Below, one piece after another: positions 10,600 to 14,065 of a stretch of 53,952 bases of DNA. The notes under the pieces were generated by a model, which made no database searches, was not told the origin of the DNA, and saw nothing but the letters and a program-made list of their open reading frames with translations. A program made the translations under genes and the position numbers. Source of the DNA: Deltaproteobacteria bacterium (lineage in GTDB: Bacteria > Myxococcota_A > UBA9160 > UBA4427); the NCBI GenBank assembly GCA_029261855.1, contig JAJDAN010000034.1, positions 1-53,952 of the forward strand. The letters are read 5' to 3'. Positions within the stretch are counted from its first letter, which is position 1; every line of letters begins with the position of its first letter.

Positions 10600-12072
10600 A
10601 TGTCCCAGGCCATCCTCCTCACCGGCGCCACCGGCTATGTCGGGGGCCGTCTCCTGCGTGCGCTGGAGGGCTCGAGCGACTCGCTCCGGTGCCTGGCGAG
10701 GCGCCCGCGTGAGCTGCTCGGGCGGGTGCGGCCCGGGACCGAGGTCGTGGGAGGCGATGCCGTTTCCGGGGAAGGCCTACGCGAAGCACTGAGCGGCATC
10801 GACACCGCCTACTACCTCATTCATTCGATGGGAGAGGGAGACGACTTCGAGGAGCAGGACCGACGAGCGGCAACCAACTTCGCGGCAGCCGCTCGTGCGG
10901 CTGGGGTTTCCCGCATCGTCTACCTCGGTGGCCTCGCCGACGAGAGCCACGAACTGTCGGCTCACCTGAGAAGCCGGATCGAGGTGGGACGACTCTTGGG
11001 CGCGACGGGGGTTCCGGTCGTCGAGCTGCGCGCCTCGATCGTGATCGGCTCGGGCAGCCTCTCATTCGAGATGATCCGCGCCCTCGTCGAACGCCTGCCC
11101 GTGATGGTGATGCCGCGGTGGGTCTCGATGCTGGCCCAACCCATCGCCATCGATGACCTGCTCGCCTATCTGCTCGAAGCGAGAAGCATCGCTCCCTCGC
11201 TCGCGTCCGTCTACGAGATCGGAGGCGCCGACGCGATGTCCTATGGGGACGTAATGAGGGAATACGCGCACCAGCGCCGGCTGCGTCGGGTGATGATCCG
11301 GGTGCCGATCCTGACGCCGCGCCTCAGCAGTCTTTGGTTGGCGCTCGTGACGCCGCTCTACGCCCGTGTCGGGCGCAAGCTGATCGATAGCATCTGCCAT
11401 CCGACGGTGGTGCGGATCGACGCGGCGGAGAAGGTCTTTCGCGTCCGCCCCCGTGGCGTGCGTCAGGCGATCGCGACGGCCCTTGCGAACGAGAAGACAG
11501 AGGTCGAGGCTTCGCGCGGGTCCGACAGCCGCTCGGCGATCGGTCGGCCGCGCCCCCTCGGGAGCCGCGTCGGGCGACAGCGGGTCGACTGCCGGGAGAT
11601 CCACGTCCCGCTCCCGCCCGAGGATCTGTTCCGAGCGGTTCGACGCATCGGCGGCAAGACCGGCTGGTACGCCTACGACTCGCTCTGGCGGTTGCGCGGC
11701 GTCCTCGACCTGATGTTCGGCGGGCCCGGGCTGAAGCGGTCCAGGCGCGACCCGGATCAGCTCGTCGTGGGTGACGTGCTGGATTGCTGGAGCGTCGAGG
11801 CCATCGAGCCCGGACGCCTGCTGCGTCTGCGGGCCGAGATGCGGCTGCCGGGGCGCGCAACGCTCGCGTTCGAGGTCACGCCCGCGCCCGGAGGCTCGAG
11901 ACTGCGGCAGACGGCGGTGTTCGACCCGCGCGGTCTGGCGGGGCTCGCCTACTGGTACGGCATCTACCCGCTGCATGCGCTGGTATTCGAGGGCATGCTG
12001 CGCGGGATCGCCAATGCCGCCCGAACGACGGCGGCCCGACCGCCGCTCGCTTCGCGCGAGAAGGCGGCCTGA
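10600..12072 (+). CDS. SDR (atypical, NmrA/UDP-epimerase-like) with C-terminal DUF2867 domain
   Basis: A 490-residue protein. The N-terminal Rossmann domain starts with LLTGATGYVGG (cofactor motif GxxGxxG, residues 9-15) and binds NAD(P)H. The part after about residue 330 is DUF2867, a START/SRPBCC-like ligand pocket, seen in the WYAYDSLWRLRG and GLAYWYGIYPLH segments. Such fusions are annotated as NAD(P)H-binding oxidoreductases of unknown substrate, possibly a lipid or isoprenoid. It is the first gene of a tight operon; the predicted selenoprotein starts 5 nt after its stop codon. Confidence 0.87.
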   Translation: MSQAILLTGATGYVGGRLLRALEGSSDSLRCLARRPRELLGRVRPGTEVVGGDAVSGEGLREALSGIDTAYYLIHSMGEGDDFEEQDRRAATNFAAAARAAGVSRIVYLGGLADESHELSAHLRSRIEVGRLLGATGVPVVELRASIVIGSGSLSFEMIRALVERLPVMVMPRWVSMLAQPIAIDDLLAYLLEARSIAPSLASVYEIGGADAMSYGDVMREYAHQRRLRRVMIRVPILTPRLSSLWLALVTPLYARVGRKLIDSICHPTVVRIDAAEKVFRVRPRGVRQAIATALANEKTEVEASRGSDSRSAIGRPRPLGSRVGRQRVDCREIHVPLPPEDLFRAVRRIGGKTGWYAYDSLWRLRGVLDLMFGGPGLKRSRRDPDQLVVGDVLDCWSVEAIEPGRLLRLRAEMRLPGRATLAFEVTPAPGGSRLRQTAVFDPRGLAGLAYWYGIYPLHALVFEGMLRGIANAARTTAARPPLASREKAA

Positions 12073-12077
12073 CGAGC

Positions 12078-13622
12078 ATGCGCCTTTCCACTCGCCTCGC
12101 GCGCCTGACCCTGAATGACTGGCAGGGAGACCCGGTCGAACTGGGCTCGCTCTGGAAGCACCGCCCCGTCGTCCTGGTCTTCATCCGTCACTTCGGCTGA
12201 CTGTTCTGCCGTGAGCAAGTCGCGCAGTTGCGCGATCGGGTAGACGAGATTCGGGCCGGGGGAGCCGAGCTCGTGATCGTGGGAAACGGAGCCGCGAACT
12301 TCGCGGCGGCGTTCCGCGAGGACTTCGGACTCGACGGACCGCTGCTCGTCGACCCGGACCTTCGCGCCTACCGGGCCGCTGGCCTGCGGCGGGGACGCGT
12401 CGAGCTGCTGTCACCACGCCTGCTCGGTGCCGGCCTGCGAGCGATCCGGGCCGGGTCCCGGCAAACGGCAGTGGAAGGAGACCCCTGGCAGCTCGGAGGT
12501 GTCTTCGTGGTCCGACCGGGCGGCGACCTCGCCTACCGCTTCGAGAGCCGGGACGCCGGAGACCATGCACCCATCGAGGAGATCCTGACGGCGCTGGATC
12601 CAGCCACGCCAGCGATCGATGAGAGCGCGTCGCGATCACCGCTGCTGGCGTTCGCCAGCCGCGCGATCTCCCGTGTGATCGATCCGCTGATCGTGCCGTC
12701 GTTCGATCGCAACGGCTTCCGACTCCACGCACTCGGCTTCGACCCGGACGACCTGCAGGTGGATCTCGCGGGGCGGCGTTGCCTCGTTACCGGAGCGAAC
12801 TCGGGCATCGGGTACGAGACGGCGCTCGCACTCGCAGATCTCGGAGGCGAGGTCCTGCTGTTGTGCCGCGACCCCGAGCGCGGACGGGGCGCCGCCGAGA
12901 GCATCATCGCGTGCACGGGCAATCCGGCCGTCCGCGCGGAGACCGTGGACCTCTCCGACCTGGACTCGGTCTGCGCGCTCGCGAGTCGCCTGGGAGAGCA
13001 GGCGGTCGACATTCTCGTCCACAACGCCGGCGTGCTCCCCGCTGACCGCATCGAGACCGCCCAAGGGGTGGAGCTCTGCTTTGCGACACACGTTGCGGGG
13101 CCGCATCTCCTGACCCGCCTGCTGCGTTCGCGCCTCGAACGCTCTCGAGATGCGCACGTCATCTGGGTGTCGTCCGGCGGGATGTACACGCGGCGATTAC
13201 AGGTGTCGGATCCGAACTGGATGTCGCGGCGCGGGGCCTATGACGGCGTGACGGCGTACGCCGAGACCAAGCGCGCCCAGGTGGTACTGGCGGAACTCTG
13301 GGCCGACGAGTTGGCTGACACGTCGGTCGTGGTGAACGCGATGCATCCGGGCTGGGCCGATACGCCGGCCGTACGCCAGTCGCTCCCCACCTTCCACCGC
13401 GTGGTCCGCGCGATCCTGCGAAGCCCTGCAGAAGGTGCAGACACCGTCGTCTGGATGGCAGCCGCGGAGACCGCGCGGCGCTGGTCCGGTCGCTTCCTGT
13501 TCGATCGCGCACCGAGAACCACACACCTGCTTCCAGGAACCCGGGAAACGAAATCGGAGAGAGCGTCCCTCTGGCGCCGTTGCGAGTCGTTGGCCGACGC
13601 GGCCGCGGCGAGGAAGCCGTGA
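12078..13622 (+). CDS. Predicted selenoprotein: SelU-like (AhpC-TSA_2) thioredoxin-fold domain fused to DHRS12-like SDR
   Basis: One reading frame of 514 residues if TGA at 12198-12200 is read as selenocysteine 41. Domain 1 (about 1-175) is a peroxiredoxin-like AhpC-TSA_2 domain: FIRHFG-U-LFCREQVAQL gives a UxxC redox motif (Sec41, Cys44), followed by VIVGNG and GDPWQLGGVFVV. Relatives normally have Cys here, and SelU proteins have Sec. Domain 2 (about 225-514) is an SDR with TGANSGIG at 238-245, the active-site pair Tyr394/Lys398 and MHPGWADTP, closest in pattern to DHRS12. The frame is open on both sides of the TGA and homology runs straight through it. A SECIS-like hairpin follows the TGA. 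The gene sits between an SDR and a flavin-binding protein, suggesting a redox pathway. Alternatives are a true nonsense mutation or a sequencing error at a Cys codon. Confidence 0.85.
12219..12236 (+). promoter_or_regulatory. Bacterial SECIS-like hairpin
   Basis: Stem GTCGCGC / GCGCGAT (7 bp including a terminal G-U) encloses the loop AGTT at 12226-12229. The loop starts 26 nt after the TGA. This fits published bacterial SECIS rules: apical loop about 16-37 nt past the UGA, a G within the first two loop bases, then U, and a short stable stem. It lies wholly within the coding sequence, as bacterial SECIS elements do. Confidence 0.65.
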
Positions 13623-14065
13623 GGCGGTCGGGGCCGTGGTCGGCGGAGGAGACGCACCGCTTCTTGCGCGACGCGCTCGTACCGGTCCGCGTCGCTTGCC
13701 ACGGGGCGTCGGGGCATCCGGTGATCGCCTCACTCTGGTACCTCTCGCTAGACGGACACCTGTGGTGTGCGACTCAGCGAAGCGCGCGGGTCGTGCGCCT
13801 GCTGACAGACGAGCCTCGCTGCGGATTCGAGGTTTCCCTCGAACGCCCGCCCTATCGCGGCGTTCGAGGGGCCGCGACAGCCCGCCTCCATGAGGACCGC
13901 GGAGAGGAGATCCTTCGCGCACTCCTCGAACGCTATCTGGCAGGCTCGAACGTGGCGCTCGCCCGCGATCTTCTCGAGAAGGTCGACACCGAGACGGCGA
14001 TCGAGCTGATCCCGAGCCGTCTCACTTCCTGGGACTTCCGCGGCCGCATGGAGCCGGCTGCTTGA
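13619..14065 (+). CDS. Pyridoxamine 5'-phosphate oxidase-like flavin-binding protein
   Basis: A 148-residue split-barrel protein, probably binding FMN or F420. Seen: HPVIASLWYLSLDGHLWCAT, the core strands that contact the flavin phosphate, then CGFEVSLERPPYRGVRG and a late LIPSRLTSWDFRGRM strand. The start is GTG at 13619, overlapping the previous stop as GTGA, with a purine-rich gaggaag upstream. The overlap indicates coupled expression with the predicted selenoprotein. The substrate is unknown; family members include flavin reductases, heme-degrading enzymes and F420-dependent reductases. Confidence 0.85.
   Translation: MRRSGPWSAEETHRFLRDALVPVRVACHGASGHPVIASLWYLSLDGHLWCATQRSARVVRLLTDEPRCGFEVSLERPPYRGVRGAATARLHEDRGEEILRALLERYLAGSNVALARDLLEKVDTETAIELIPSRLTSWDFRGRMEPAA

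Follow-up and report, generated by a model that had tools for sequence, protein, structure and literature searches.

The question raised by this locus is whether a TGA inside an otherwise open reading frame is read as selenocysteine (Sec), and what a selenium-based redox domain would be doing on the same chain as a classical short-chain dehydrogenase (SDR). The stretch analyzed here, referred to as the window, comprises 53,952 nucleotides from the 7.0 Mb genome of an uncultivated myxobacterial relative (98.6% complete). Standard annotation would end the protein at codon 41 or begin it past the TGA, and the Sec half is therefore easily lost. The features discussed below all lie on the forward strand:

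10600–12072 (+): upstream operon neighbour, an NmrA-like NAD(P)-binding and DUF2867 protein, 5 bp gap
12078–13622 (+): full open reading frame of a predicted 514-residue selenoprotein, PRXL2/SelL-related domain plus classical SDR (translation, profile matches)
12102–12593 (+): peroxiredoxin-like domain (SelL-related/SelU-like, PF13911/NF040769), residues 9–172 (profile matches)
12198–12200 (+): predicted Sec codon TGA, U41 of UxxC (translation and relatives)
12219–12236 (+): putative bSECIS hairpin with a 7-bp stem, GTCGCGC/GCGCGAT (fold and family comparison)
12228–12230 (+): Leu51 codon TTG, a loop/stem constraint, invariant in 38 of 38 Sec homologues sharing the sequence context
12594–12761 (+): linker and N-terminal extension typical of the SDR subgroup (SFDRxGFxxHxLxFxPxDLxVDL)
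12762–13511 (+): classical SDR domain, residues 229–478, with TGANSGIG, HNAG, S365/S366, Y394 and K398
13257–13271 (+): SDR catalytic Y394-AET-K398
13619–14065 (+): downstream operon neighbour, pyridoxamine-phosphate-oxidase-like (flavin, PNPOx-type), its start overlapping the stop by 4 bp

Reading frame and selenocysteine machinery

Translated with TGA as U, the frame consists of 40 codons, U41, 473 further codons and a TGA stop at 13620–13622, with U41 at the first redox position of FIRHFG-U-LFC-REQ. Both the in-frame TGA at the first-Cys site and the open frame on either side of it had been claimed in the initial annotation and were reproduced by translation. The same annotation had treated a genome devoid of Sec machinery as an argument against its reading; instead, selA (517 bits), selB (273 bits), a tRNA-Sec with anticodon TCA (selC) and selD were all found in the source genome, while ARAGORN detected no tRNA within the window itself. 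The selD gene (G000:C24:63971-64897, L148) carries its own in-frame TGA in a GGUARK loop, making SelD a predicted selenoprotein as well. Two peroxiredoxin-like candidates with in-frame TGA codons were also observed elsewhere in this genome, with the motifs FYRGHW-U-PFC (C32:94495-94794, L210) and FYRSADW-U-PYC (C3:153249-153551, L211). Genome-wide recoding of UGA was ruled out, as TGA also serves as the stop codon of this very gene and a Sec tRNA is encoded in the genome.

Since selA was present in 84 of the 91 genomes of the window's class, its co-occurrence with the fusion is uninformative on its own. One fusion-bearing genome (G089) gave no selA match, perhaps owing to incompleteness, and an SAR324 genome in which the two domains are encoded by two genes also has selA.

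The conservation of the codon itself was followed in three sets of relatives. Scanning the 91 class genomes yielded 29 with a fusion homologue covering the site (53–81% identity), and each had exactly one TGA; Cys, TAA or TAG occurred at the Sec site in none of these 29. Among 60 relatives, TGA was found at the aligned codon in all 21 fusion-type loci (the window's locus counted), and a separate scan of named genomes gave TGA in 15 of 15 readings among the matches listed, some records being shared with the other scan. The codon position was verified by translation in the 21 loci and the 15 readings. Thus, another stop codon at this site, which the initial annotation had regarded as damaging, was not seen in any relative fusion. 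The UxxC motif was present in all fusions whose motif was inspected. Single-domain homologues elsewhere in the phylum have the Cys form RHFGCxFC at the Sec position, and Cys-type SDR fusions were found neither in the class, nor in 379 genomes drawn from the phylum, nor among the 80 best matches of the named-genome scan. A search of plasmid records returned SDR-only top matches and no record spanning 80% of the query. Judged by sequence, UGA codon 41 is almost certainly decoded as Sec, and the predicted product is a single chain composed of a selenium-based UxxC reductase-type domain and an NAD(P)-binding SDR.

The hairpin downstream of the UGA

Folding located the SECIS-type hairpin that had been proposed earlier at 19–36 nt past the TGA, and it is conserved across the family. 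Its apical loop AGTT (12226–12229) begins 25 nt past the UGA and has G at loop position 2, so that the locus shows what is expected of bacterial selenoproteins, namely a hairpin that follows closely on the UGA, is under selection and has G among its first two loop bases. A 53-nt fold of the window reached −20.5 kcal/mol (z −2.0). Compared with synonymous recodings, the window's own hairpin was only mildly better (z −0.37), and the RNA case rests for this reason on the family, in which Sec loci had a mean z of −1.24 versus +0.02 for Cys loci. All seven stem pairs were kept in 39 of 54 Sec-type loci, and compensatory variants of the stem were found (GTCACGC/GCGTGAC, GTTACGC/GCGTGAC, GCCGCGC/GCGCGGC and, with an Arg to Gly change, GTCGCCC/GGGCGAC). 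In total, 301 of 315 stem cells were paired, whereas shuffles averaged 288 and did not exceed 295. At the leucine spanning the loop (Leu+10), TTG was used in 38 of 38 Sec loci versus 5 of 220 other neighbouring leucines, and Cys homologues have other codons at this position; these and the hairpin figures come from related sequences that are not independent and are consequently not strict probabilities.

No Rfam family matched in the window; since no general model captures the variety of bSECIS elements, this absence is uninformative. Five single-domain Sec relatives from other families (L190-L193, L195) have another hairpin, whose 6-nt loop lies 16 nt past the UGA; within a single protein family, one SECIS thus seems to have taken the place of another.

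A sequencing error, a real stop or a pseudogene, with the SDR made alone from an internal start, could invoke the SDR-containing open reading frame that starts at 12228. The TGA is, however, common to 29 assemblies, the hairpin and the TTG codon are conserved, coding is intact on both sides of the TGA, and the Sec machinery is present, which leaves this explanation a practically negligible probability. A pseudogene or assembly error in particular was ruled out by the conservation of TGA in 29 of 29 fusions.

The two domains and the origin of the fusion

The N-terminal domain matched the NCBIfam model SelL_rel_redox (NF040769) with 136.6 bits for the window (cut-off 120; range 136.6–140.1 bits) and Pfam AhpC-TSA_2 (PF13911) with 63.5 bits against a gathering threshold of 27. 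The initial annotation had seen a SelU-like selenoprotein here, which is borne out by the Sec machinery, the TGA-conserving relatives and the PF13911 match. Its statement that homology runs through the TGA held in part: NF040769 and Pfam AhpC-TSA cross the TGA, whereas the local match to AhpC-TSA_2 starts at residue 50. The only strong solved relative was prostamide/prostaglandin F (PGF) synthase (PDB 9us9, E 1.9e-16), in which the first Cys of RRFGCVVC aligns with U41. This enzyme is SelU3 and reduces prostamide H2 (PMC3473315).

AlphaFold modelled the whole chain with a mean pLDDT of 93.1 and a pTM of 0.88. The lists of Foldseek and VIA matches were filled by the SDR half and speak to the SDR fold, not to the N-terminal fold. 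The SDR half superposed best on LPOR (PDB 6l1h, 7jk9) and on 3rd5, with VIA Z of about 31 and an rmsd of 2.2–2.4 over 254–274 residues; the nearest solved folds for 12762–13511 are light-dependent protochlorophyllide oxidoreductases. Pfam adh_short covers residues 235–367 (81.9 bits), and the claimed Tyr/Lys pair is intact. TGxxxGxG, NAG, the catalytic Ser and YxxxK of classical SDRs are present in the fusions except L054 (genome G016), which has F for the catalytic Tyr and other SDR changes and perhaps represents a degenerating SDR half beside an intact Sec half. The tetrad Asn is replaced by His338 in 26 of 26 fusions. As this position varies within the SDR group (His in 26 and Asn in 38 standalone SDR relatives, approximately 40% His), His338 does not exclude SDR membership. 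The motifs SSGGM, MHPGWADTP and EGADT are what we take to be a likeness to DHRS12 (SDR40C).

Outside the fusions, the two domains were encountered as neighbours. SAR324 (L102) has one gene for the SDR and, next to it, another for the UxxC protein; MAPEG, DUF2867 and photolyase genes come after this pair, and BLUF lies upstream of it. Separate adjacent genes were also found in two genomes of the window's phylum (G274 and G336), and in G214 a Cys-type gene directly precedes the SDR gene. Because the domains are separate neighbours in other Myxococcota and in SAR324, the fusion can be regarded as a 'Rosetta stone' that shows which SDR works with the selenium domain, and a functional link between the two halves is highly probable. 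On a 65-row tree, the rows labelled as fusions need one change relative to the Cys rows, a count that leaves out unlabelled single-domain rows. Since several Sec rows with a single domain lie within the fusion group, there are also splits, losses or truncated contigs. A metagenome-assembled genome (MAG) labelled Acidobacteria (L090) also carries the fusion, which may reflect transfer or misbinning.

Gene context and proposed function

Neither a photolyase nor a B12-MerR gene was found within the window's own 19 kb, where the DUF2867 and PNPOx genes are the only such neighbours. In its relatives, photolyase, MerR-B12 regulators (LitR/CarH-type), SRPBCC, lipocalin, CMAS (CFA-type methyltransferase) and RudS (TudS-DUF1722) recurred, with FolE2, haem peroxidase and GST as single cases; B12-MerR was located at L216, L218 and L233. 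By tblastn, 13 of 23 fusion loci (349 kb) contained one or more of ten marker genes, compared to 0 of 25 control regions (475 kb), the controls being taken from some of the same genomes and several of the probes from the tested loci. The remaining 10 fusion loci, some on short contigs, had no marker. Photolyase, whose probe came from SAR324 and thus from outside the test set, was found in 7 of 23 fusion loci versus 0 of 25 controls (Fisher p 0.003), and DUF2867, with the window excluded, in 4 of 22 versus 0 of 25 (p 0.04). Standalone SDR relatives, mostly from other phyla, had such marker genes in 22 of 51 loci. In another myxobacterial MAG (L086), 13 kb hold SRPBCC, SDR, sigma-70, DUF2867, RudS, photolyase, a Cys-type AhpC-TSA_2 and a partial CMAS. 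In Pseudomonas, the genes known to be grouped in LitR clusters include those for photolyase, a short-chain dehydrogenase, UfaM, FolE and RudS (PMC9758184, PMC11417400). On the basis of this gene context, a role in light or photo-oxidative stress appears likely.

Our slightly favoured reading is that the two-domain Sec protein may be a photo-oxidative-stress enzyme acting on oxidised lipids, with two successive steps per chain. Light and oxygen generate singlet oxygen, and this in turn yields hydroperoxides and endoperoxides of unsaturated or furan lipids. The U41 selenolate would attack the O–O bond of a lipid (endo)peroxide or hydroperoxide, similar to the CxxC of prostamide/PGF synthase, and the resulting U41-C44 selenenylsulfide would be reset by a thioredoxin- or glutathione-type donor. 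With the help of NAD(P)H, the SDR half would then reduce (or oxidise) the carbonyl or alcohol product. For the parts of this proposal, we put peroxide or endoperoxide reduction by the selenium half at even chances, and the succession of both steps on one substrate is offered tentatively, being somewhat doubtful. The endoperoxide idea rests on distant homology, and, to our knowledge, prostaglandins are not bacterial lipids, which counts against it. It is rather unlikely, though worth stating, that the whole picture applies, with the first known Sec-SDR fusion as a two-step bacterial lipid-(endo)peroxide detoxifier that is related to PGF synthase and under LitR/CarH-type light control. If the context holds, selenium would be tied to the protection of lipids against photo-oxidation, and the prostamide/PGF synthase reaction would have a bacterial counterpart. 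Two families of unknown role also gain a testable function from the fusion.

Other readings of the same architecture were weighed against this one. A general Sec antioxidant of the peroxiredoxin or thiol-peroxidase kind might be fused to the SDR for co-expression only, the two sharing no substrate. Both families are broad, the domains are found apart and as neighbours in either order, and relatives with the Sec or Cys domain alone are still found in the same class or phylum, all of which would suit independent activities; yet the adjacency recurs in distant lineages and the fusion was retained through one clade, and we consider this explanation unlikely while granting it real weight. The initial annotation had instead proposed that electrons pass between the selenol/thiol centre and NAD(P)H, in which case the SDR would reduce the selenenylsulfide of the peroxiredoxin domain. 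In its favour, the two domains are part of a single polypeptide, and a bridge between them could conceivably be provided by the flavin-type PNPOx neighbour. However, SDRs are free of flavin and transfer hydride to a carbonyl carbon, NAD(P)H reduction of a disulfide or selenenylsulfide normally needs flavin, and no flavin domain was among the profile matches in the fusion, so that direct passage is unsupported and such a relay improbable. Equally improbable is a UxxC domain that senses redox state or peroxide and thereby turns the SDR on or off during photo-oxidative stress: the light-stress gene context and the fast reaction of Sec would fit, but the motif is of the catalytic type and conserved throughout, and the domain also occurs by itself, with no SDR attached.

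The protein stands close to several known systems. With the SelL-related proteins of NF040769, it shares the same domain above cut-off, and single-domain relatives in the phylum are UxxC or CxxC; the family model describes a single domain, whereas the window protein carries an SDR in addition. SelL, a UxxU diselenide protein of aquatic organisms, has the Prx-like fold and the two-residue redox spacing in common with it, but the window domain has UxxC and is thus not SelL proper, and its bacterial SECIS lies inside the coding sequence. The latter also separates it from SelU/PRXL2 and especially SelU3 (9us9), with which it shares PF13911 and the placement of Sec over the first Cys, while the eukaryotic members are single-domain proteins and the one described here is bacterial and SDR-fused. 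Fold, TGxxxGIG, NAG and S-Y-K are shared with LPOR and 3rd5; in contrast, all fusions checked have His at the tetrad Asn, and they bear the N-terminal selenium domain. LitR/CarH light-inducible clusters contain photolyase, SDR, UfaM/CFA-type methyltransferase, FolE, RudS and MerR-B12, but the selenoprotein of the window's relatives has no counterpart in the excerpted cluster descriptions (PMC9758184, PMC11417400).

The initial annotation knew of no description of a selenoprotein joined to an SDR, and this fusion is indeed absent from both a 2026 inventory, which covers 119 families and subfamilies of prokaryotic selenoproteins (PMC13188914), and the fusion list of the GOS survey (PMC2398784); annotation databases may already hold some of the fusion sequences. 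Selenoprotein fusions of the Trx fold are known from these sources, such as Prx/PP2C and Prx-like 2/3 with unknown domains (PMC2398784, PMC13188914). The protein described here is a fusion of the same kind with a different partner: both component families are already known and the SDR is the new part. The prokaryotic selenoproteome thus gains a domain architecture whose Sec insertion is backed by unusually clean evidence at the RNA level.
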